From the NCBI RefSeq assembly GCF_025755255.1, contig NZ_JALIEB010000009.1, positions 62,001-126,000 on the forward strand: 64,000 bases of DNA, in the 5' to 3' direction. Each line of letters starts with the position of its first letter. Position 1 is the first letter of the stretch. The notes under the pieces are model-generated. The model worked only from the letters and a program-made list of their open reading frames with translations, had not been told where the DNA came from and ran no database searches. Positions 8,228 through 43,992 of this stretch are shown in pieces. The position numbers were made by a program, and so were the translations under genes. The DNA comes from Roseobacter sinensis (GTDB lineage: Bacteria > Pseudomonadota > Alphaproteobacteria > Rhodobacterales > Rhodobacteraceae).

Positions 8228-9472
8228 GTGAAACGCTATTCCGTCTTTGCCGTGGCGCGCGAGGCTCTGCGCTATCACACCGGCTGGGAGCGGGCGTGGA
8301 AAAAAGCGCAGCCGAAGCCGCGCTACGATGTGATCATCATCGGCGGCGGCGGGCACGGGCTGGCCACGGCCTATCACCTGGGCAAACGGTTCGGGATCAA
8401 GAACGTCGCGATCCTCGAGAAGGGCTGGCTCGGCGGCGGCAACACGGGCCGGAACACGACGATCATCCGCAGCAATTACCTGCAGGATCCGTCGGCGGCG
8501 CTCTACGAGAAGTCGCGCGCGCTTTACGAGACGATGTCTCAGGATCTCAACTACAACGTGATGTTCAGCCCGCGCGGGGTGATCATGCTGGCGCAAACCC
8601 ATCACGAGGTCCGCGGCTATCAGCGCACGGCCCATGCCAACGCGCTGCAAGGCGTGAAGACCGAGTTCATCGGCCCGCGTCGCGTTAAGGATCTGGTGCC
8701 GATCATCAATATCGACGGACCGCGCTATCCGGTGCTGGGCGGGCTCTGGCAGGCACGCGGCGGCACGGCGCGGCACGATGCGGTGGCCTGGGGCTATGCG
8801 CGGGCATGCTCGGACATGGGCATGGATATGATTCAGCAGTGCGAGGTGACGGCGATCCGGCGTGAAGGCGGCAAGGTCGTCGGTGTCGACACCACGAAGG
8901 GTGCCATTGACTGCGACAAGCTGGGCATCGTGGTGGCGGGCAATTCGGGCCATGCGGCGGCGATGGCGGGCTTCCGTCTGCCGATTGAGAGCGTGGCGTT
9001 GCAGGCGCTGGTCTCGGAGCCGATCAAGCCCTGCATGGATGTGGTGGTCATGGCCAACACGGTGCACGGCTACATGAGCCAGTCCGACAAGGGCGAGATG
9101 GTGATCGGCGGCGGCACGGATGGCTACAACAACTACACCCAGCGCGGCGCGTTCCACCACATCGAGGAGACCGTGCGTGCGCTGGTCGAGACCTTCCCGA
9201 TGATCTCGCGCCTGAAGATGCTCCGGCAATGGGGCGGGATCGTGGATGTGACGGGCGACCGCTCTCCGATCCTGTCGAAGACGCCGGTCGAGAATGTCTT
9301 CATCAACTGCGGCTGGGGCACGGGTGGTTTCAAGGCCACGCCCGGCTCCGGCTGGGCGATGGCGGAGCTGATGGCGAAGGGGCACGGATCCCTGACGGAC
9401 GCCTTCGGACTACAGCGCTTCCGCGAGGGCCGCTTCATTGACGAAAGCGTTGCCGCAGGGGTGGCGCATTGA
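8228..9472 (+). CDS. soxB: Sarcosine oxidase subunit beta (locus 1)
   Basis: 414 residues from GTG. SoxB is the flavin-carrying catalytic subunit of heterotetrameric sarcosine oxidase, which oxidatively demethylates sarcosine to glycine. Residues 35-45 hold the FAD loop IIIGGGGHGLATAYHLG, NTGRNTTIIRSNY is the conserved segment after it, and GGTARHDAVAWGYAR contains the histidine that carries covalent FMN in this family. FINCGWGTGGFKATPGSG near the C-terminus is the usual FAD-binding end. It heads a soxB-D-A-G order interrupted by small-protein genes. A paralogue lies at 38929-40182. Confidence 0.93.
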   Translation: MKRYSVFAVAREALRYHTGWERAWKKAQPKPRYDVIIIGGGGHGLATAYHLGKRFGIKNVAILEKGWLGGGNTGRNTTIIRSNYLQDPSAALYEKSRALYETMSQDLNYNVMFSPRGVIMLAQTHHEVRGYQRTAHANALQGVKTEFIGPRRVKDLVPIINIDGPRYPVLGGLWQARGGTARHDAVAWGYARACSDMGMDMIQQCEVTAIRREGGKVVGVDTTKGAIDCDKLGIVVAGNSGHAAAMAGFRLPIESVALQALVSEPIKPCMDVVVMANTVHGYMSQSDKGEMVIGGGTDGYNNYTQRGAFHHIEETVRALVETFPMISRLKMLRQWGGIVDVTGDRSPILSKTPVENVFINCGWGTGGFKATPGSGWAMAELMAKGHGSLTDAFGLQRFREGRFIDESVAAGVAH

Positions 9473-9474
9473 TG

Positions 9475-9660
9475 TCACTCGTGCGTTTTCTTGCCCTGAC
9501 CGGCCGCACTGCCGAAGGCGATCAGGCTGCCCACGTCCACCTCGCGCCCGCCACGCGCGGCCTTGCGCTCGGCGATGCCGCGACGCTCGCGGACCAGCAT
9601 GATGATTGCCACCACCGCAATGGCGCCGAAGACCAGGACGGCCATCATTTCCTTGCTCAT
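9475..9660 (-). CDS. Small single-helix membrane protein, opposite strand inside the sox locus
   Basis: 61 residues: N-terminal transmembrane helix MAVLVFGAIAVVAIIMLV followed by a basic cytoplasmic tail (RERRGIAERKAARGGREV). GAGGAG six bases upstream supports the ATG at 9660. The stop lies 2 bp from the soxB stop. No family recognised; the short N-terminal helix plus charged tail resembles small stress-related membrane proteins. It is divergent from the small gene at 9804. Confidence 0.6.
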   Translation of the reverse strand: MSKEMMAVLVFGAIAVVAIIMLVRERRGIAERKAARGGREVDVGSLIAFGSAAGQGKKTHE

Positions 9661-9766
9661 CTGAGGCTCCTCTTTCCCTGTCGTGCCCAAAGGATAGCGC
9701 GCCTTGATGGACTTGGCGACAGTTACCCGTCCGGAGAGCGATGGAACAAGGCGCAGCCTTTCAGTG

Positions 9767-9797
9767 TTTCCTCTGCAACTGAAATGTACAGAGGAGA
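9767..9797 (+). promoter_or_regulatory. Hairpin that would sequester a Shine-Dalgarno site
   Basis: TTTCCTCTG (9767-9775) and CAGAGGAGA (9789-9797) form nine consecutive pairs, one of them G-U, around a 13-nt loop. The right arm contains the whole GAGGAG ribosome-binding site of the gene starting at 9804. When folded, the site would be hidden, as in RNA thermometers and other translational switches. The structure is visible in the sequence; regulation is an inference. Confidence 0.55.
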
Positions 9798-9803
9798 CAT
9801 ATC

Positions 9804-9986
9804 ATGTCCGATCAAACGCAGCAGAACTCGAAAGGTGGGAACACCGGTCTTGCCTTCGTGGTTGGGATGCTCGTCGTCATTGTCGGTATCCTGGCCTATC
9901 TCATGCTGGCCGACGATGCCGGCCTCTCGGTCGAAGGGCCCGATACAGCCATTGAAGGGGCCGCAGAGGCCATTTCGGGCGAATGA
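9804..9986 (+). CDS. Small single-helix membrane protein A (sox locus insert)
   Basis: 60 residues: hydrophilic glutamine/asparagine-rich N-terminus (MSDQTQQNSKGGNTG), one transmembrane helix (LAFVVGMLVVIVGILAYLMLA), then a short acidic tail ending EGAAEAISGE. The Shine-Dalgarno GAGGAG lies inside a 9-bp hairpin. A strong terminator follows at 10010-10054, so it is a single-gene transcript. Organisation and topology match the gene at 10203, suggesting two distant copies of one family of unknown function. Confidence 0.65.
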   Translation: MSDQTQQNSKGGNTGLAFVVGMLVVIVGILAYLMLADDAGLSVEGPDTAIEGAAEAISGE

Positions 9987-10009
9987 CGCCAAGAATTCGA
10001 CCGTTGCGC

Positions 10010-10054
10010 ACGCCGCCAGGACGACCTTGCGTCCCGGCGGCGTTCCGTCTTTTT
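10010..10054 (+). terminator. Rho-independent terminator after small gene A
   Basis: ACGCCGCC-A-GGACG (10010-10023) pairs with CGTCC-C-GGCGGCGT (10030-10043): 13 pairs with one mismatch around a 6-nt loop, followed six bases later by TTTTT (10050-10054). Confidence 0.7.
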
Positions 10055-10202
10055 CCATCAAATCCCCGCCATCGGCACCTTTTGGCCAGTCTTTCTGCGG
10101 CGCTCCGGCTTCACACCGCCCAAATTCGAGGGTGCAGTCCCCCGACATTGTTACCGCTCTCGCATCGGCCAAACTGACCTCCCGTAACAAGGAGACTGAC
10201 CA

Positions 10203-10412
10203 ATGGCTGACTACACGACCCACAACACTGATGGCGTCAGCGGCAAGGGCATTTTCATCGCGCTCGTGGTTATCGGCGCGTTCGTCTTCCTGCTGGCCGT
10301 TCTGGGCACGAGCACCGTTCCACCTGATGGGGAAGGTGCAACGGCCCCGGCAGCCATCGAAACGGCACCCACAGCACCGGCTGACACCACAGCCCCAGCC
10401 GTGGTGGAATAA
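10203..10412 (+). CDS. Small single-helix membrane protein B (sox locus insert)
   Basis: 69 residues with an AAGGAG ribosome site. Hydrophilic N-terminus (MADYTTHNTDGVSGKG), one transmembrane helix (IFIALVVIGAFVFLLAVLG), and a C-terminal alanine/threonine/proline-rich tail that would be exposed in the periplasm. Same plan as the gene at 9804. It is followed by its own terminator at 10444-10472, directly before soxD. Function unknown. Confidence 0.65.
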   Translation: MADYTTHNTDGVSGKGIFIALVVIGAFVFLLAVLGTSTVPPDGEGATAPAAIETAPTAPADTTAPAVVE

Positions 10413-10443
10413 CACACCTCTTCTTCCTCCCCTGATCGCAGCA

Positions 10444-10472
10444 GGCGGGCGTCTTTTGGCGCCCGCCTTTTT
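10444..10472 (+). terminator. Rho-independent terminator between small gene B and soxD
   Basis: Perfect 8-bp stem GGCGGGCG (10444-10451) / CGCCCGCC (10460-10467), 8-nt loop, then TTTTT. It implies that soxD-A-G of this locus are not simply read through from upstream. Confidence 0.85.
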
Positions 10473-10505
10473 GCTGTGCCCGCCCAAGACTGCCGGAGCG
10501 CGCCC

Positions 10506-10835
10506 ATGCTGATCCTCACCTGTCCCGTCTGCGGTGTGACGGCCGAAGAAACCGAATTTCACGGCGGCGGCGAGGCGCATCTGACCCGCCATGGCCCGGG
10601 CAGTTCCGACGATGAGTTTCAGAGCTATCTCTTCATGCGGGAAAACCCGCGTGGCGTGCATTTCGAGCGCTGGCGCCACGTCTATGGCTGCGGCAAGTGG
10701 TTTCACGCGGCGCGCTGCACCACGACGCTGGAGGTCTTCGGCACCTACCCTGCCCAGACCACCGAACCGCCCAAGGACCTGCGCAAGACGATTTCCCAAA
10801 AGCGCCCCGGCTGGACATGGAGAGATCTCACGTGA
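10506..10835 (+). CDS. soxD: Sarcosine oxidase subunit delta (locus 1)
   Basis: 109 residues. SoxD is the small zinc-binding structural subunit of heterotetrameric sarcosine oxidase. The zinc ligands are visible: Cys6 and Cys9 in TCPVCG, His58 and Cys62 in RWRHVYGCGKWF. Conserved LFMRENPRG and RCTTTLEVFGTY also fit. The ATG at 10506 removes a ten-residue upstream extension that would begin inside the preceding terminator region. The gap to soxA is 61 bp, unlike the 4-bp overlap in the second locus. Confidence 0.92.
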   Translation: MLILTCPVCGVTAEETEFHGGGEAHLTRHGPGSSDDEFQSYLFMRENPRGVHFERWRHVYGCGKWFHAARCTTTLEVFGTYPAQTTEPPKDLRKTISQKRPGWTWRDLT

Positions 10836-10836
10836 T

Positions 10837-10862
10837 CCTTCACCCGTCCCAAAATACTCAAA
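10837..10862 (-). repeat. 26-nt element shared with the second sox locus (copy 1)
   Basis: Read on the minus strand this is TTTGAGTATTTTG followed by GGACGGGTGAAGG, identical at 25 of 26 positions to 40207-40232. It starts 2 bp after the soxD stop and fills much of the soxD-soxA gap. Confidence 0.8.
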
Positions 10863-10896
10863 TCCCGACACCGACCAAAACGCGGATCATCCGATC

Positions 10897-13800
10897 ATGA
10901 GCACACGCCTGGCCACCGGCGGCCGCCTCCTGAACAAGAGCAAGCCGCTGAGCTTCACTTTCAACGGCAAGCGGCTGCGCGGCTTCGCAGGCGACACGCT
11001 CGCCTCGGCGCTGCTGGCCAACGACCAGATGCTCGTCGGCCGTTCGTTCAAGTACCACCGTCCGCGCGGGATCGTCGCCTCGGGGGCCGAGGAACCCAAT
11101 GGGCTGGTCAACCTCGGGGAGGAGGGCCGTTTCGAGCCCAACCAGCGCGTCACCACGACCGAGCTCTTTGAGGGACTTGCAGCGCAGAGCCAGAACCACT
11201 GGCCCAGCCTCGACTTCGACATAGGGGCCGTCAATTCGCGCCTCAGCCGGTTTCTGCCTGCGGGCTTCTACTACAAGATGTTCATCCATCCGCGCCCCTT
11301 GTGGAAACATCTTTACGAGCCGTTCATCCGGCAGTCGGCAGGCCTGGGCCGTGCACCGACGGCGCGGGACGCCGACACCTACGAGCATTTCTATTTCTTC
11401 TGCGATGTCATGGTCATCGGCGGCGGCGTGGCGGGCCTGCAGGCCGCCAAGGCCGCCGCCGTGACCGGCGCCAAGGTTCTGCTGGTCGAGCAGACGGCGC
11501 ACTGGGGCGGGCGGGCGCTGGTCGACGGCGGCACCGTCGAAGGCAAGCCTGTGGACAACTTCGTGGAACAAATCGTTTCCGAACTTGAAACAATGCCCAA
11601 TGTGACCCTGCGCAAGCGCCTGATGGGCGCGGGGGTCTACGACCACGGCTATGTGCTGGGCTATGAGCAGCTGCGCGATCACGCGCCCGACACACCCGGC
11701 CCCCGGCACCGGCTCTGGCGCATCCGGGCGGGCCATATCGTGACCGCCACGGGTGCCATCGAGCGGCCATTGTCCTTTGCCGGCAATGACATCCCCGGTG
11801 TGATGCTGGCCTCGGCGATGCGCGACTACGTGGTCAATTACGGCGTCTCCTCGGGCGACCGCACCGTGGTCGTGACCAACAACGATGACGCCTATCTGAC
11901 GGCATCTGCGCTCGTAAATGCTGGGCTGCGCGTGCCCGCCATCCTTGATGCGCGGGTTCTCGCTGAGGACAGCCCGGCCATGGCGGAAGCGAAGGCACTC
12001 GGCATCCGCGTGCTGATGGGCCACGGCATCGCATCGGTGAAGGGGACCAAGCGCGTGACCGGCGTGGGTGTCTGCAGCCAGGCCGGCGAAGGCGCAGTGC
12101 TGGAAGAGGTGGCCTGCGACGCGGTGGCCATGTCGGGTGGCTGGTCACCGGTCGTCCACCTCTGGTCGCATTGCGGCGGAAAGCTCGTCTGGGACCAGGC
12201 GCAGGCACATTTCAAGCCGGATGTGGACAAATCGCCCACCGGAGCCGCGGGCGAGGCCTTTGTGACCCCGGCCGGCGCCGCAGCAGGGCCGCTGCACCTG
12301 GGCGATGTGCTGACCAGCGCGGATCAGGCGGGCAAGGATGCGGCGAAGGCGCTTGGATTCAAACCGAAGCGGCGCAAATGCCCCGTCGGTGAAACGCCGG
12401 ACGAGGCGCCGATGCAGCCCGTCTGGCTGATGCCGCAGGGCGCAGGTGCCGAGCTGCGCAGCAAGGCCTGGCTCGACTATCAGAACGACGTGAAGGTCTC
12501 GGACGTGCAGCTTGCCGCACAGGAAGGCTTTGAGAGCGTCGAGCACGCCAAGCGCTATACCACGCTCGGTATGGCCACGGATCAGGGCAAGCTGAGCAAT
12601 ATCAACGGGCTGGCCACGCTGGCCGGATCGCTTGGCAGCTCCATCCCCGAGGTGGGGACAACCACGTTCCGGCCGCCCTATACGCCCATTTCCATGGGGG
12701 CGATTGCGGGTGAGGCGCGGGGCGAGGTGTTCCAACCCATCCGCCGCACGCCGATGCACGACTGGCATGAGGCGAACGGCGCGGAGTGGGAGCCAGTGGG
12801 CCACTGGCGGCGGCCCTACGCCTACGTGCGCGACGGTGAGAGCACCTATGACGCGGTGATGCGCGAGACGAAGAACACGCGCGAGAACCTCGGACTGCTC
12901 GACGCCTCGACGCTCGGCAAGCTGATTGTGAAAGGCCCGGATGCGGGGCGCTTTCTCGACATGCTCTACACCAACATGATGAGCACGCTGAAACCCGGCA
13001 AATGCCGCTATGGGCTGATGTGTTCCGAGAACGGCTTTCTGATCGACGACGGGGTGGTGGCACGCATCGACGAGGACACTTTCCTCTGCCACACCACCAC
13101 CGGCGGGGCCGAGCGCATTCACCAGCATATGGAGGAATGGCTGCAGACCGAATGGTGGGACTGGAAGGTCTGGGTTGCCAACGTCACCGAGCAATATGCG
13201 CAGGTGGCTGTCGTAGGCCCGAATGCCCGCAAAGCGCTGGAAAAGCTGGGTGGCATGGATGTCTCGAAGGAGGCACTCGGGTTCATGGAATGGGCCGATG
13301 GCGAATTGGCAGGCTTCAAGGTCCGGGTCTACCGCATCTCCTTCTCAGGCGAGCTCAGCTATGAGATCGCCGTGGAGGCAAGCCAGGGGCAGGCCTTTTG
13401 GGATGCGCTGATGGTCGTCGGCCATGATCTCGGGGTGATGCCCTATGGCACCGAGGCGCTGCATATCCTGCGGGCGGAAAAGGGCTTCATCATGATTGGC
13501 GATGAGACCGATGGCACGGTGATCCCGCAGGATCTGGGCCTCGACTGGGCGATTTCGAAGAAGAAGGATGACTACCTCGGCAAGCGCGCGCTGGAGCGGA
13601 CCCACATGACCGACCCCAACCGCTGGAAGCTGGTGGGGCTCGAGACGCTCTCGGGCGCGGTGCTGCCCGACGGCGCCTATGCGGTGGGCGAGGGGATCAA
13701 CGCCAATGGTCAGCGCATCACGATCGGGCGGGTCACGTCGAGCTATCATTCGCCGAACCTCGGCCGCGGCATTGCCATGGGGCTGGTGCTGCATGGGCCC

Positions 13801-13911
13801 GACCGCATGGGCGAGGTGCTGGAGTTCCCGGGAACCGAGGGCGCCACGTTTAAGGCGCGCATCGTGGATCCGGTGTTCTATGACAAGGACGGAGAGAAGG
13901 CGAATGTCTGA
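10897..13911 (+). CDS. soxA: Sarcosine oxidase subunit alpha (locus 1)
   Basis: 1004 residues. SoxA binds NAD and tetrahydrofolate and captures the methyl group released in the beta subunit as 5,10-methylene-THF. Order of parts: N-terminal ferredoxin-like domain with GRSFKYHRPRGIVASG (about 45-60); Rossmann nucleotide site VIGGGVAGLQAA (about 170); oxidoreductase core with AVAMSGGWSP and AQEGFESVEHAKRYTTLGMATDQGK; and from about residue 620 a GcvT-like aminomethyltransferase domain (GLLDASTLGKL, RISFSGELSYEIAV, PYGTEALHILRAEKGF). The start at 10897 matches the paralogue. The stop overlaps soxG by 8 bp. Confidence 0.94.
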   Translation: MSTRLATGGRLLNKSKPLSFTFNGKRLRGFAGDTLASALLANDQMLVGRSFKYHRPRGIVASGAEEPNGLVNLGEEGRFEPNQRVTTTELFEGLAAQSQNHWPSLDFDIGAVNSRLSRFLPAGFYYKMFIHPRPLWKHLYEPFIRQSAGLGRAPTARDADTYEHFYFFCDVMVIGGGVAGLQAAKAAAVTGAKVLLVEQTAHWGGRALVDGGTVEGKPVDNFVEQIVSELETMPNVTLRKRLMGAGVYDHGYVLGYEQLRDHAPDTPGPRHRLWRIRAGHIVTATGAIERPLSFAGNDIPGVMLASAMRDYVVNYGVSSGDRTVVVTNNDDAYLTASALVNAGLRVPAILDARVLAEDSPAMAEAKALGIRVLMGHGIASVKGTKRVTGVGVCSQAGEGAVLEEVACDAVAMSGGWSPVVHLWSHCGGKLVWDQAQAHFKPDVDKSPTGAAGEAFVTPAGAAAGPLHLGDVLTSADQAGKDAAKALGFKPKRRKCPVGETPDEAPMQPVWLMPQGAGAELRSKAWLDYQNDVKVSDVQLAAQEGFESVEHAKRYTTLGMATDQGKLSNINGLATLAGSLGSSIPEVGTTTFRPPYTPISMGAIAGEARGEVFQPIRRTPMHDWHEANGAEWEPVGHWRRPYAYVRDGESTYDAVMRETKNTRENLGLLDASTLGKLIVKGPDAGRFLDMLYTNMMSTLKPGKCRYGLMCSENGFLIDDGVVARIDEDTFLCHTTTGGAERIHQHMEEWLQTEWWDWKVWVANVTEQYAQVAVVGPNARKALEKLGGMDVSKEALGFMEWADGELAGFKVRVYRISFSGELSYEIAVEASQGQAFWDALMVVGHDLGVMPYGTEALHILRAEKGFIMIGDETDGTVIPQDLGLDWAISKKKDDYLGKRALERTHMTDPNRWKLVGLETLSGAVLPDGAYAVGEGINANGQRITIGRVTSSYHSPNLGRGIAMGLVLHGPDRMGEVLEFPGTEGATFKARIVDPVFYDKDGEKANV

Positions 13912-14494
13912 ACCAGTGACGGCCCTCGGTGGGGTAAGTTCCGATGCGAGGATCGCTGCGATTGCCGAAGCACCCTTGCAGGGCATGATCACGCTCCGCG
14001 CAGACCTCTCCGACAGCGCCGTGAAGAAAGCGGCCAAGGCTGCGGCCGGCGCGGATGTCCCGGGTCCGGGTACGGTGCATCTTGGGGATGAGAGCGGCCT
14101 CTGCTGGATGAGCCCCGACGAGCTTTTGCTGCTGTGCCCCTACGCAGAGGTCACGGAGACGCTGGAACGGCTGCAAAAGGCGCTCGTCAAGACCCATGCG
14201 CTGGCGGTCAATGTTTCCGATGCGCGGGCGTCCTTCACGGTAACCGGCCCGCGGGCGCGCGAGGTGATGGGCAAGCTCTGCCCTGTGGATTTCGCACCCG
14301 ACAGATTCGCTCCGGGGATGTTCCGCCGCACCCGCATGGCTCAGGTCCCAGCCGCCATCTGGATGAGTGCCGACGAGACATTCCGCATCGTTTGTTTCCG
14401 GTCTCAAGCCCAATACGTCTTTGATCTTCTGACTGTCGCCGCCCAGCCGGGATCCGAAGTATTTTCTGACGGAAAGACACCGGCTTTGGCTTGA
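13904..14494 (+). CDS. soxG: Sarcosine oxidase subunit gamma (locus 1)
   Basis: 196 residues, a divergent GcvT-like subunit of heterotetrameric sarcosine oxidase. Recognisable segments are GLCWMSPDELLLLCP, VNVSDARASFTVTGPRAREVMGKLCPVDFAP and MAQVPAAIWMSADETFRIVCFRS. Overlapping start and stop with soxA (8 bp) indicate coupled translation. The last codons (about 14457-14473) contain GAAGTATTTT and GACGG, a weak echo of the element shared by the two sox loci. Confidence 0.9.
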   Translation: MSEPVTALGGVSSDARIAAIAEAPLQGMITLRADLSDSAVKKAAKAAAGADVPGPGTVHLGDESGLCWMSPDELLLLCPYAEVTETLERLQKALVKTHALAVNVSDARASFTVTGPRAREVMGKLCPVDFAPDRFAPGMFRRTRMAQVPAAIWMSADETFRIVCFRSQAQYVFDLLTVAAQPGSEVFSDGKTPALA

Positions 14495-38928: not shown

Positions 38929-40182
38929 GTGAAGTTTTCTGGCCTGCGCGTTCTGAAGGAAGGGCTGACAGGCAATGTCGGCTGGACGCCGCATTGGCGG
39001 GATCCGGAGCCGAAGCCGGAGTATGACGTTTTGATCATCGGCGGCGGCGGGCATGGTCTGTCCACTGCGTACTACCTCGCGAAGAACCACGGCATGACGA
39101 ATGTCGCTGTTCTCGAGAAGGGATACATCGGCGGCGGCAACATTGGGCGGAACACGACGATTGTGCGGGCGAACTACTTTTTGCCTGGGAATTCAGAATT
39201 CTACAGCCATTCCTTGAAGCTCTGGGAGGGGCTCGAGGAGGATCTGAATTACAACGTGATGCATTCGCAGCGCGGGATCATCAACCTCTTCCACTCGGAC
39301 GGTCAGCGTGATGCGTTCGTGCGGCGTGGCAATGCGATGGTGAACCAGGGCGACGATGCCATCCTGCTCGACCGCGAGGGCGTGCGCGCGCATCTGCCGT
39401 ATCTCGATTTCGAGAACACGCGCTTTCCGATCTACGGCGGGCTCTATCATCCGCGCGGCGGGACGGCGCGGCACGACGCGGTGGCCTGGGGCTATGCGCG
39501 GGGTGCTGATATGCGCGGGGTGGATCTTTTGCAGAATTGCGAGGTCACCGGCATCGACATTGAAAACGGCACGGTGCGCGGAGTGCAGACCACGCGCGGG
39601 GCGATCCGCGCGAAGAAGGTCGGGATCGTCGTGGCCGGGCGCTCCAGCCAAGTGGCGGCGATGGCCGGAATGCGTCTGCCGATCGAAAGCCATGTGCTGC
39701 AGGCTTTCGTGACCGAAGGGTTGAAACCCTGCATCGACCATGTGGTGACTTTTGGCATGGGGCATTTCTATATCAGCCAGTCCGACAAGGGCGGGCTCGT
39801 CTTCGGGGGCGATCTGGACTTCTATGCCTCCTACGCGAGCCGCGGCAACCTGCCGACGGCGGAGCATGTGATGGAGGCGGGCATGACGCTGATGCCGATG
39901 ATCGGCAAGGCCAAGCTATTGCGCAGTTGGGGTGGGATCATGGATATGACGCCTGACGGTTCGCCGATCATCGACAAGACGGACACCGAGGGTCTCTTCA
40001 TCGATTGCGGCTGGTGTTACGGCGGGTTCAAGGCGGTTCCGGCCTCGGGCTACGCCTTTGCGCATCTAATGGCAACCGGGCAGCTTCACGAGACGGCCGC
40101 GGCGTTCCGGCTCGACCGGTTCCGGACCGGGCGCGGTATCCTCGACGAAGAGGGCACCGGCTCTCAGCACAATCTGCATTGA
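38929..40182 (+). CDS. soxB: Sarcosine oxidase subunit beta (locus 2)
   Basis: 417 residues. Same architecture as the gene at 8228: FAD loop LIIGGGGHGLSTAYYLA, NIGRNTTIVRANYFLPGN, GGTARHDAVAWGYARG with the likely FMN-linked histidine, and FIDCGWCYGGFKAVPASG at the end. The start at GTG 38929 has CGGAG eight bases upstream; a GTG nine bases earlier is possible. The two SoxB proteins are clearly diverged, which suggests different N-methylated substrates rather than simple dosage. It leads a compact soxB-D-A-G operon. Confidence 0.92.
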   Translation: MKFSGLRVLKEGLTGNVGWTPHWRDPEPKPEYDVLIIGGGGHGLSTAYYLAKNHGMTNVAVLEKGYIGGGNIGRNTTIVRANYFLPGNSEFYSHSLKLWEGLEEDLNYNVMHSQRGIINLFHSDGQRDAFVRRGNAMVNQGDDAILLDREGVRAHLPYLDFENTRFPIYGGLYHPRGGTARHDAVAWGYARGADMRGVDLLQNCEVTGIDIENGTVRGVQTTRGAIRAKKVGIVVAGRSSQVAAMAGMRLPIESHVLQAFVTEGLKPCIDHVVTFGMGHFYISQSDKGGLVFGGDLDFYASYASRGNLPTAEHVMEAGMTLMPMIGKAKLLRSWGGIMDMTPDGSPIIDKTDTEGLFIDCGWCYGGFKAVPASGYAFAHLMATGQLHETAAAFRLDRFRTGRGILDEEGTGSQHNLH

Positions 40183-40206
40183 GGGGCGGCTGAGCGTGCA
40201 CCAGGT

Positions 40207-40232
40207 TTTGAGTATTTTTGGACGGGTGAAGG
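40207..40232 (+). repeat. 26-nt element shared with the first sox locus (copy 2)
   Basis: TTTGAGTATTTTT followed by GGACGGGTGAAGG, one mismatch to the inverted copy at 10837-10862. It lies in the 63-bp gap between soxB and soxD, and its final AAGG is 14 bp before the soxD start. Confidence 0.8.
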
Positions 40233-40245
40233 GGAGGGCGCGCGC

Positions 40246-40518
40246 ATGCGGCTGACCTGTCCGATCTGCGGCGCACGGGATCGGCGCGAATTCTACTATC
40301 AGGGCGATGCGGTGGCGCTGGATCGGCCCGCGCCGGGTGCAGGTGTGCAGGCCTGGGACGACTATGTGCATCTCCGGGATAATCCGGCCGGCCCGCGCCG
40401 CGAACTCTGGCATCACGAGGCGGGCTGTGGCGCCTGGCTGGTCGTCGAGCGCAATACCACGACCCATGAGGTCCATGGGGTGACCTTGGCCATGGCTGTC
40501 GCGGAGGCGCGGCGATGA
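40246..40518 (+). CDS. soxD: Sarcosine oxidase subunit delta (locus 2)
   Basis: 90 residues, shorter than the paralogue (109). Zinc ligands Cys5 and Cys8 (LTCPICG), His57 and Cys61 (LWHHEAGCGAWL) are intact. LRDNPAG and RNTTTHEVHG match the family. The missing C-terminal 20 residues are a tail only. The stop overlaps the soxA start by 4 bp (ATGA). Confidence 0.92.
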   Translation: MRLTCPICGARDRREFYYQGDAVALDRPAPGAGVQAWDDYVHLRDNPAGPRRELWHHEAGCGAWLVVERNTTTHEVHGVTLAMAVAEARR

Positions 40519-43454
40519 GGATTGACGGCAAGGGGCTGATCGACCGCGCCCAGCCTCTGCGGTTCCAGTTCGAGGGGATCGGACACACCGGGTTCGAGGG
40601 CGATACGCTGGCCTCGGCTTTGCTCGCCAAGGGCGTGCGGCTGATGGGCCGGTCGTTCAAGTACCACCGTCCGCGCGGTGTGCTGACCGCCGGCAGCGAA
40701 GAGCCGAATGCGCTGGTGACCATCGGGCGGGGTGCGGCGCAGGAGCCGAACGTGCGCGCCACCATGCTCGAGATCTACGACGGGCTTGACGCCCGCGCCC
40801 AAAACGCCTGGCCGTCGCTGCGTGCCGATGCGATGGCCATCAACGATGTCGCCTGGCCGTTTCTGGGCGCCGGGTTCTACTACAAGACCTTCATGTGGCC
40901 GCGCGGGTTCTGGGAACGGCTCTATGAGCCGCTCATCCGGCGTGCAGCCGGGCTGGGCGCTCTCAGCGGCGCACATCATCCCGATCGATCCGAAAAGGCC
41001 TATGCCTTTTGCGATCTTCTGGTGATCGGCTCGGGGCCTGCGGGGCTGGCGGCGGCGCTGACCGCCGGGCGTGCCGGAGCGGATGTGCTGTTGGTCGAGG
41101 AAGACAGTCTCTTCGGCGGGCGGCTCAATGCCGAGACCTTCGAGGTGGATGGCCTTGCCGGCCCCGACTGGGCGGCGCAAACGGTGGCTGAGCTGCGAGA
41201 CATGGAGAATGTGCGGCTGATGACCCGCACTTGCGTCGTCGGCGCCTACGACCATGGGACCTATGCCGCAGTCGAGCGGGTGGGCCCGCACGGGGCCAGG
41301 CGCCCGGAGGGCGGGGTTGCCGAGACCTTTTGGCGAATTGTGGCGAAACGCGCGATTCTCGCAGCCGGGGCGATCGAACGGCCCGTTGCCTTTGAGAACA
41401 ACGACCGGCCGGGCATCATGACCGCAAGCGCCGTGCGCGCGTACCTCAACCGTTGGGGGGTCGCCTCTGGCCAACGTGTGGCCGTGTTCGGCAACAATGA
41501 TGATGCACATCGCACGGCGGTTGATCTGGAAGCGGCGGGCGTCGAGGTTGCGGCGTTGATCGACAGCCGCGCGGAGATCGCGCCGCCGGATCTCAACTGC
41601 CCGGTCTATGCCGGTGCCATGGTCACCGGCAGCGCGGGGCGGCTGGGGCTCAAGCGGATCTCGGTGAAGACCGGCCGGGGCAACAAGGATATCGAGGTCG
41701 ACTGCCTGGCCATGTCGGGCGGCTGGAACCCCACGGTGCATCTGACCTGTCACATGAACGGCCGTCCGACCTGGCGCGCGGATATCGCAAGCTTCGTACC
41801 GACGCCGGGCAGCATTCCCGGACTTGTAACCGCAGGCGCATGCAATGGAGATTTCAGCACGCAAGCCTGTCTGAAGGCGGGAGCCGAGGCTGCGGCGGCC
41901 GTCCTGAAGGACCTCGGGCTCAAGGCGTCGGGCGGGGCGCGGCTGGCGGAGGCGGAGGACAGTCCGTACCGGATCGCACCGCTCTGGGCGGTGCCGGGCA
42001 CCGGCCGCGCCTGGCTCGACTTCCAGAACGATGTGACCGTCAAGGACGTCAAGCAGGCGGCCGTCGAAAACTTCCGCTCGGTCGAGCATATGAAGCGTTA
42101 CACCACGCAAGGCATGGCCACCGATCAGGGCAAGAATTCCAACGTGGCGGCCCTTGCCCTGCTGGCGGATGCCACGGGTCGCGGCATCCCCGAGACCGGG
42201 ACGACGACCTTCCGCCCTCCGTTCTCGCCGGTATCGCTCGCGACGTTCGGGGCCGGGGCGCAGGGCATCGGGTTCGCGCCGCAGCGTCTCACCACCTCGC
42301 ATGGCGAAAGCATAGCGCGGGGCGCGCCGATGATCGAGGCCGGTCTGTGGTACCGGCCCAGCTATTTCCCGCAGAAGGGGGAGACCCACTGGCGGCAGTC
42401 CTGCGACCGCGAGGTGGGATACGTGCGCAAGGCGGTCGGCGTCTGCGATGTCTCGACGCTCGGCAAGATTGACCTCCAGGGGCCGGGCGCCGCAGAGCTT
42501 CTGGATTTCGTCTATACGAACACCTTCTCCACGCTGAAGGTGGGTCGGGTGCGTTATGGGCTGATGCTGCGCGAAGACGGCTTTGTGATGGACGATGGCA
42601 CCACCGCACGCCTGGGCGATCAGCACTACGTGATGACGACCACAACGGCAGCGGCGGGCGCGGTGATGCGGCATCTGTACTTCGTGCATCAGGCGCTCTG
42701 CCCGCATCTCGACGTGCGCTTCACGTCGGTGACCGAGCAATGGGCGCAATTCGCGGTGGCCGGCCCGAAGTCGCGCGAGTTGCTGAACGGGCTGCTGGAT
42801 CAGCCCGTCGACAATGAGACCTGGCCCTTCATGGCCTGCGGTGACATGGCGATCGGAGGCATCCCGGGGCGGCTCTTCCGCATTTCGTTCTCGGGGGAGC
42901 ACGCGTATGAGGTCGCGGTGCCTGCACGCTATGGCGAGAGCCTTTTCAAGCGGTTGGTCGCCCGCGCCGAAGCGATGGGCGGCGGCGCCTACGGGATGGA
43001 GGCGCTCAACGTGTTGCGGATCGAGAAGGGGCATATCACCCATGCAGAGATCCACGGCCGCACCACCGCCTTCGATATCGGGTTCGCGCGGATGCTGAGC
43101 GCCAAGAAGGACTGTATCGGCAAGACCATGGCCGCGCGCGAGGGGCTGGTGGATCCGGGCCGCGAGCGGCTGGTGGGGCTGAAACCGGTGGGCGGCGACA
43201 GCGTGCTGAGCGCCGGCGCGCATCTCTTTGACACCGGTGTGGCCATGACGCGCGAGACGAGCCTCGGCTACACCACCTCGGCGGTCTTCTCGCCGACGCT
43301 GGGGCACCACATTGCGCTCGGCTTCCTGCAACGCGGCCCGGAACGGATGGGCGAGGTGATCCGTTGCTTCGATCACATGCGCGGACTCGAGGCAGAGGTG
43401 GAGGTCTGCCCCCCGGTTTTCGTCGATCCGGACGGAGGGCGGACCCGTGGGTGA
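40515..43454 (+). CDS. soxA: Sarcosine oxidase subunit alpha (locus 2)
   Basis: 979 residues. Domain order as in the paralogue: N-terminal GRSFKYHRPRGVLTAGSEEPN, Rossmann site LVIGSGPAGLAAALTAGRAGADV (about residue 170), the oxidoreductase core with LAMSGGWNP and AAVENFRSVEHMKRYTTQGMATDQGK, and a C-terminal GcvT-like THF domain (GVCDVSTLGKIDLQGPGA, FRISFSGEHAYEVAV, YGMEALNVLRIEKGH). It produces 5,10-methylene-THF from the methyl group. It is coupled to soxD (4-bp overlap) and soxG (8-bp overlap). Confidence 0.94.
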   Translation: MRIDGKGLIDRAQPLRFQFEGIGHTGFEGDTLASALLAKGVRLMGRSFKYHRPRGVLTAGSEEPNALVTIGRGAAQEPNVRATMLEIYDGLDARAQNAWPSLRADAMAINDVAWPFLGAGFYYKTFMWPRGFWERLYEPLIRRAAGLGALSGAHHPDRSEKAYAFCDLLVIGSGPAGLAAALTAGRAGADVLLVEEDSLFGGRLNAETFEVDGLAGPDWAAQTVAELRDMENVRLMTRTCVVGAYDHGTYAAVERVGPHGARRPEGGVAETFWRIVAKRAILAAGAIERPVAFENNDRPGIMTASAVRAYLNRWGVASGQRVAVFGNNDDAHRTAVDLEAAGVEVAALIDSRAEIAPPDLNCPVYAGAMVTGSAGRLGLKRISVKTGRGNKDIEVDCLAMSGGWNPTVHLTCHMNGRPTWRADIASFVPTPGSIPGLVTAGACNGDFSTQACLKAGAEAAAAVLKDLGLKASGGARLAEAEDSPYRIAPLWAVPGTGRAWLDFQNDVTVKDVKQAAVENFRSVEHMKRYTTQGMATDQGKNSNVAALALLADATGRGIPETGTTTFRPPFSPVSLATFGAGAQGIGFAPQRLTTSHGESIARGAPMIEAGLWYRPSYFPQKGETHWRQSCDREVGYVRKAVGVCDVSTLGKIDLQGPGAAELLDFVYTNTFSTLKVGRVRYGLMLREDGFVMDDGTTARLGDQHYVMTTTTAAAGAVMRHLYFVHQALCPHLDVRFTSVTEQWAQFAVAGPKSRELLNGLLDQPVDNETWPFMACGDMAIGGIPGRLFRISFSGEHAYEVAVPARYGESLFKRLVARAEAMGGGAYGMEALNVLRIEKGHITHAEIHGRTTAFDIGFARMLSAKKDCIGKTMAAREGLVDPGRERLVGLKPVGGDSVLSAGAHLFDTGVAMTRETSLGYTTSAVFSPTLGHHIALGFLQRGPERMGEVIRCFDHMRGLEAEVEVCPPVFVDPDGGRTRG

Positions 43455-43992
43455 GCTCGTCGGAACATCGCCCTGCGCAGGGGTGCTGCCGCTGACGATC
43501 GGCGACGTGCAGGCGGTGGAGGTAGAGCTCGGCCATCTGACCTCGATCGCGCCCTTTGCCGGGCAGGCCACGGCGGCATCGGTTGCACTGGAGGCAGCCC
43601 ACGGAATGCCTCTGCCCAAGGCCAATTGCACAACCGGCAAGGAGGGCGCGCGGGCGATCTGGTTCGGGCGCGACATGGCGCTGCTTGCAGGCCCGACCTG
43701 CGATCCGGCAGTGGCCAAGCACGCGGCGCTGACCGATCAGTCTGACGCCTGGGCCGCGGTCACGCTGTCAGGCCCTTCGGCGGAAGATGTTCTGGCTCGG
43801 CTCGTGCCTGTCGATCTGCGCAGCGTCAGTTTCAAGCGCGGCCACACGGCGCGAACGCTGCTCAAGCACATGAACGGCTCGGTCACGCGGCTGGGCCCGG
43901 AGAGCTTCCTGATCCTTGTCTTCCGCTCGATGGCGCGGACTCTTGCGCATGATCTCAAAGAGGCTATGGAAGCGGTTGCCGCGCGCGGATAG
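43447..43992 (+). CDS. soxG: Sarcosine oxidase subunit gamma (locus 2)
   Basis: 181 residues from a GTG start overlapping the soxA stop by 8 bp, exactly as in locus 1. Conserved gamma-subunit pieces: WAAVTLSGPSAEDVLARLVPVDLRSVSFKRGHTARTLLKHM and GPESFLILVFRSMARTL. Low identity to the other SoxG, as expected for the fastest-evolving subunit. Confidence 0.88.
   Translation: MGELVGTSPCAGVLPLTIGDVQAVEVELGHLTSIAPFAGQATAASVALEAAHGMPLPKANCTTGKEGARAIWFGRDMALLAGPTCDPAVAKHAALTDQSDAWAAVTLSGPSAEDVLARLVPVDLRSVSFKRGHTARTLLKHMNGSVTRLGPESFLILVFRSMARTLAHDLKEAMEAVAARG

Follow-up and report, generated by a model that had tools for sequence, protein, structure and literature searches.

In this work we analysed a stretch of 64,000 nucleotides of Roseobacter sinensis DNA (the window), in which three small membrane protein genes, P1, P2 and P3, lie between soxB and soxD of a sarcosine oxidase operon. 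We consider it likely, with a probability of about three in four, that P2 is an EcfG-controlled envelope-stress gene lodged in the sox operon together with two independently signalled neighbours. The features of the locus, with their positions in the window, are as follows.

8228..9472, plus strand: soxB, sarcosine oxidase beta subunit, the upstream host gene (TIGR01373, E 1e-188).
9475..9660, minus strand: P1, 61 aa, single helix, basic tail; ribosome site GAGGAG.
9743..9768, plus strand: EcfG-type promoter element GGAAC-N17-TGTT, 61 nt 5' of the P2 start.
9804..9986, plus strand: P2, 60 aa, single helix, acidic tail predicted to be periplasmic, P2-type family; ribosome site GAGGAG.
10009..10054, plus strand: intrinsic terminator 3' of P2, a hairpin and a T run, with paired changes in the stem.
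10203..10412, plus strand: P3, 69 aa, single helix, Ala/Pro-rich acidic tail predicted to be periplasmic; ribosome site AAGGAG.
10443..10472, plus strand: intrinsic terminator 3' of P3, with paired changes in the stem.
10506..10835, plus strand: soxD, sarcosine oxidase delta subunit, the downstream host gene (PF04267, E 1.1e-28).
10897..13911, plus strand: soxA, sarcosine oxidase alpha subunit (TIGR01372).
13904..14494, plus strand: soxG, sarcosine oxidase gamma subunit, assigned by its place and by similarity to the same-place gene of the second copy.

P1 is convergent with soxB and divergent from P2, and the whole sox operon is flanked in the window by ccmI and sodB. A second, paralogous soxBDAG operon is found at positions 38932-43938; its soxB is 50% identical and its soxB-soxD gap measures 63 nt.

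An earlier note on this DNA had reported open reading frames of 61, 60 and 69 residues between soxB and soxD, with a ribosome site and a terminator for each of P2 and P3, and this description is accurate: the frames and the sites are in the sequence, and the stems of both terminators covary. In the P2 stem, 7 of 15 pairs show changes on both sides (8 genomes, after two of the ten P2 loci, L051 and L057, had been removed from the alignment by eye beforehand), and in the P3 stem 7 of 11 pairs do so (16 genomes). A search for homologues, which the note had set as a test, found relatives in Roseobacter and in other genera. Single-sequence searches detected P1 in 18, P3 in 15 and P2 in 10 of the 18 other Roseobacter genomes (19, 16 and 11 of 19 with the genome of the window counted); the same searches in 40 genomes outside the genus found no P1, no P3, and P2 weakly in two. 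Profile searches of 198 genomes of the family, own genome counted, found P1 in 7, P3 in 11 and P2 in 25. The median dN/dS, computed with our own Nei-Gojobori script on pairs with a dS of 0.1 to 1.5, is 0.19 for P1 (102 pairs), 0.18 for P2 (28 pairs) and 0.12 for P3 (79 pairs); the diverged P2 of L056 was left out of A2. All three genes are under purifying selection. Their homologues in the genus and their low dN/dS confirm that these are real, conserved small membrane-protein genes.

The surroundings of the block were surveyed in the family. Among the best matches listed, an adjacent soxB/soxD pair was found in 135 of the 198 genomes (own genome counted), a sample that leans to better-scoring operons. 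The gap is at least 150 nt long in 97 of these 135 best-matching operons and below 150 nt in 38, with a maximum of 2648 nt. Long gaps are thus common in the family, and within the genus the block is kept; the arrangement in the window is therefore not a local oddity, and the idea of an insertion peculiar to this operon was abandoned. The short gap that the earlier note had ascribed to homologous operons holds for the second copy in the window, but not for the 97. The long gaps other than that of the window itself (96) were read for frames of 40-140 codons that have a ribosome-site-like word and a hydrophobic stretch of 19 residues. Among the matches listed, 61 of the 96 contain such a small gene, and the total of 87 ORFs, some of which may, given the filter, be chance or two-helix frames, compares with a mean of 0.4 in dinucleotide shuffles of the gaps (20 rounds). 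Small hydrophobic genes, that is, interrupt a well-known catabolic operon in 61 of the 134 other best-matching operons surveyed (the 96 long gaps that were read plus 38 short ones counted as empty), and one may ask how soxDAG comes to be expressed downstream of them. By protein patterns of our own making, 18 of the 66 plus-strand ATG frames in the gaps are P2-type and 17 P3-type (among the matches listed), and no fewer than two more small families recur in the remaining gap ORFs. As side observations, a family with an AGFxxG-like helix, often with a VVYPNL-like or VYTSF end (by eye), seems to recur in nine of the gaps, and the members seen are without an EcfG-type element; a tiny family at four loci has its helix first, then FEA or FETG and an acidic tail, and two of the four have the looser EcfG-type element described below at 61 nt.

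P2 and P3 each consist of a start of 15 residues, one helix and an acidic tail (net charge -7 and -5, respectively), whereas the helix of P1 lies at residues 5-23 and is followed by a basic tail (net +4). The single plan that had been attributed to all three proteins is therefore common to P2 and P3 but not to P1. The positive-inside rule is the basis for predicting membrane topology. From their short start, helix and acidic tail, P2 and P3 are predicted to be oriented N-in/C-out, and the helix near the start of P1, with its basic tail, suggests that the topology of P1 is probably the opposite. When the profiles were compared with hhalign, P2-type and P3-type matched with a probability of 95.8% (E 7e-9), across 28 helix columns only, and P1 matched P2-type with a probability of just 10.6%. 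Since hydrophobic composition can give such a score, a match limited to 28 columns does not prove kinship, and that of P2-type with P3-type is possible. These values do not support one common family for all three, as the earlier note had proposed. P1, P2 and P3 have no Pfam-A or NCBIfam match above the curated cut-off. Matches of single P2-type members to 18 Pfam families at E 0.1 (the best, Apolipoprotein, at 4.6e-5 in 1 of 23 members) and of P3-type members to eight NCBIfam families (best 0.0083) were set aside as composition, and no solved-structure homologue of P1 was obtained at E 1.

Support for a link between P2 and stress comes from its upstream region. In the 10 aligned Roseobacter P1-P2 regions, GGAAC and a downstream GTT are invariant. 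The stricter of our two promoter patterns, GGAAC-N16/17-[CT]GTT, which was derived from this alignment, is found wherever a Roseobacter locus has P2 (11 of 11, the diverged copy in G008 counted) and at none of the eight without an intact P2; in the 19 Roseobacter loci its matches are confined to P2, and the minus strand of the block has none. The looser pattern, GGAAC-N15..18-NGTT, also of our own design, lies within 100 nt upstream of all 18 P2-type genes from 16 other genera, of none of the 17 P3-type genes and of 7 of the 31 other small gap genes, the corresponding counts for the stricter pattern being 15, 0 and 6 (all among the matches listed). The P2-type class was picked by protein pattern, independently of the element. 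An EcfG-type promoter at P1 or P3 is not indicated by these counts, neither in the 17 P3-type genes nor on the minus strand of the 19 Roseobacter blocks, where the stricter pattern was sought. GGAAC precedes the ATG by 58 or 61 nt in the P2-type genes and by 55-67 nt in the other seven; in shuffled upstream regions a mean of 0.29 of 66 carry the element, with a maximum of 3 (200 rounds), and matches to the looser pattern in the 96 loci number 35 on the coding strand against 5 on the opposite strand (among the matches listed). At 30 P2-type loci that were read, the element is within 90 nt of the match start in 27; of the other three, L278 and L285 lack it and L284 has it at 125 nt only. As a control, the 200 nt preceding the phyR match were examined at 30 loci: the looser element is there in 27 and the stricter in 23, with 11 of the element-bearing loci having it on both strands. 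Two of these 30 PhyR matches are partial and doubtful, and neither has the element. A second stricter-pattern match in the window, at 43340 inside the second soxA, is probably due to chance.

The accessible parts of three papers give the EcfG consensus as GGAAC-N16-17-C/GGTT (PMC12148442), as GAAC-N16,17-C/GGTT (PMC4814048) and, for Sphingomonas melonis, as GGAAC-N17-20-GTT, enriched within 100 bp of starts (PMC6599016). The element of the window ends in TGTT; it fits the last of these patterns as given there and is one base off the C/GGTT forms. We infer from this resemblance that P2 is under EcfG control. The element also bears on a quite different explanation, namely that the block is a type I-like toxin-antitoxin module, with the small proteins as hydrophobic toxins and with the hairpins and the divergent P1 transcript as control. 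Their size, their single helix and the divergent neighbour would suit such a module, but the acidic tails, the stable place across genera and the EcfG-type element would not, and we regard it as highly improbable.

P2-type genes also tend to co-occur with the anti-sigma factor NepR. A broad P2 profile (A4), built partly from genomes that it then searched, matches in 43 of the 198 genomes, and NepR (PF18557) matches in 88. Own genome excluded, NepR is found in 38 of 42 P2-type genomes versus 50 of 155 others (Fisher p 4.6e-12, in a test that treats genomes as independent and ignores shared ancestry), and at stricter P2 thresholds in 28 of 30 and 22 of 24; a NepR match is absent from four P2-type genomes. 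The suggestion that the block is possibly stress related is thereby strengthened for P2, by the element at 18 of 18 relatives (among the matches listed) and by the co-occurrence with NepR. PhyR is present in 17 of the 18 other Roseobacter (E 1e-10), and 7 of the 8 in which a P2 match is absent have it. The genome of the window, a draft of 77 contigs, gave no PhyR match at E 1e-10, no NepR match and no match to the phyR-region DNA of G011, an empty answer that alone shows nothing. G000 and G016 are the only two of the 19 Roseobacter without a PhyR match, and G000 keeps the P2 promoter element. Separately, a P2-like match (L286; G198:C48:17814-17987) shares its contig with a NepR match some 4 kb away, and its 1.5 kb flanks contain no sox or ccmI match.

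Given their position, the small proteins might be accessory components of sarcosine oxidase, acting in membrane recruitment, assembly or uptake. In 14 of the 18 other Roseobacter the P1-bearing block is indeed flanked by soxB and soxD, a P2-type match is inside the gap in 29 of 43 genomes by our own tally (several of the weaker ones are located elsewhere and may be due to chance), and the six P1 homologues that the profile search found outside the genus are all sited between soxB and soxD. Of the remaining Roseobacter, G001 shows soxB and P1 before its contig breaks off. In G004, G010 and G012 no sox gene was matched within the 10-11 kb fetched around P1, and the gene order is ccmI-P1-P3-sodB. 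Beyond these, a P2-type gene adjoins ccmI without intact sox in G084, G149, G191, G195 and G203. The stretch read includes sodB at the far side of the gene in G084, G195 and G203, but not in G149 and G191. In these five genomes only distant soxB matches were found (best E 9e-153 to 2e-159, among the matches listed), and all five P2-type genes keep the promoter element. In G203, end fragments of soxB and a partial soxD surround an apparently intact P2-type gene (L262), a degenerate sox operon whose remnants let us infer that sox was lost there; in Roseobacter a loss is likely because 15 of the 18 relatives have the operon at this place. In total, eight genomes have small genes beside ccmI without intact sox nearby, and the presence of these genes accordingly does not depend on sox. 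The earlier note had asked whether the block is always inside soxB-soxD or moves; it is mostly inside, and where intact sox is missing the genes stay beside ccmI. Their retention in the eight genomes, their own terminators and stress-type promoter element, and the 38 of 135 best-matching operons whose gap of less than 150 nt is too short for such a gene make an accessory role unlikely. As a separate observation, G001 has a degenerate P2-like stretch (L049), without promoter element, next to P1 and just before the contig end.

The block might also serve mainly as a transcription insulator, whose terminators and internal promoters separate SoxB from SoxDAG, the coding capacity being secondary. 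Two covarying terminators stand in line with the operon, and no sigma-70-like promoter was found at 9000-11000 of the window (0.4 expected), so that soxDAG may need read-through. The low dN/dS of P1, P2 and P3, the persistence of the genes where sox is gone and the differences in gap gene content between genera nevertheless speak against this view, which we hold to be even less likely than an accessory role. A few other sequence signals were noted. A motif GGGG-N-CGC-N-ATNT is found 72-74 nt upstream of P3 in 9 of 16 Roseobacter and 72-75 nt upstream of 7 of 24 P3-like genes elsewhere, and is not present upstream of the window's own P3. At nine P3 loci and seven P3-like loci it takes the form of a GGGGATTTCCGC-like stretch with ATAT-like bases after it, 72-75 nt from the start, and looks like a promoter or an operator of some regulator. 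While a P1 promoter was sought, a TTGGCGAC-like stretch was seen to be largely conserved in the P1-P2 gap. Hairpins that might have involved the ribosome sites (CCTCTG/CAGAGG at P2, TTGTTAC/GTAACAA at P3) were dismissed, as by eye their upstream arms are not kept in the alignment.

We therefore return to P2 as an EcfG-controlled gene with independently signalled neighbours. The small genes would be independent units lodged in soxBDAG, at a locus that in Roseobacter lies between ccmI and sodB. Under stress, PhyR would draw NepR off the sigma factor EcfG, which would read the GGAAC-N17-TGTT promoter at 9743 and transcribe P2 into a short RNA that stops at the hairpin near 10045. The product would be small and anchored in the inner membrane, its acidic tail lying in the periplasm, and it would most likely help the envelope to withstand stress. 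This envelope role is our best guess, resting on the predicted topology and on one related species: in Rhodobacter sphaeroides, PhyR serves membrane stress and not general or oxidative stress, according to the accessible part of PMC5830050. P3 would be a second, separately terminated protein of the same predicted topology, with an Ala/Pro-rich tail, whose upstream signal in its relatives differs from that of P2, and P1 would be the third gene, divergent and with the opposite topology predicted. Sarcosine oxidase would be needed by none of the three. Several observations weigh against this reading: the draft genome of the window gave no PhyR or NepR match, which may reflect either loss or an assembly gap; the base before GTT in its element is T; eight of the 18 other Roseobacter gave no P2 match; four P2-type genomes are without NepR; and three of 30 P2-type loci are without the element inside 90 nt. 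P2 is best read as a stress gene within a metabolic operon, one that can outlive this operon.

A wider proposal is that in Rhodobacteraceae the soxB-soxD gap has long been a nesting site for small membrane proteins with a single helix, that P2-type proteins are a widespread, unrecognised effector of the general stress response guarding the envelope and that at the ccmI-sodB locus the P2-type family is older, or more strongly retained, than sarcosine oxidase; we put this combination forward tentatively, at somewhat less than even odds. As far as we have seen, the general stress response is little studied in roseobacters. It has been studied in Rhodobacter (PMC5830050) and Rubellimicrobium (PMC12148442), to judge from the accessible parts of these papers, and, in a literature lacking most subscription papers, no paper was found on the general stress response together with PhyR in Roseobacter, nor on sarcosine oxidase with EcfG or with a small membrane protein in Roseobacter. 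The P2-type family, with a promoter element at a fixed distance across genera, would make a clean reporter and knock-out target for this response.

Three known systems resemble the locus in part. DUF6724 (PF20485) weakly matches 4 of 19 P1 members (best E 0.0017), and P1 of the window scores 13.7 bits against a cut-off of 27, so that membership is not claimed. With heterotetrameric sarcosine oxidase operons, soxBDAG, the locus has in common the order soxB, D, A, G; unlike a plain soxBDAG operon, it carries guest genes with their own signals between soxB and soxD. The EcfG general stress regulon shows the same GGAAC-N-GTT element less than 100 nt from the start as is found at P2, and, in the accessible part of PMC6599016, the EcfG-regulated genes of Sphingomonas melonis include many hypothetical proteins, as P2 would be. 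P2-type genomes mostly have NepR as well. Unlike the genes of that regulon, the P2 genes, whose sigma-dependence is a prediction from sequence, sit inside a catabolic operon, and in the draft genome of the window neither phyR nor NepR was found.
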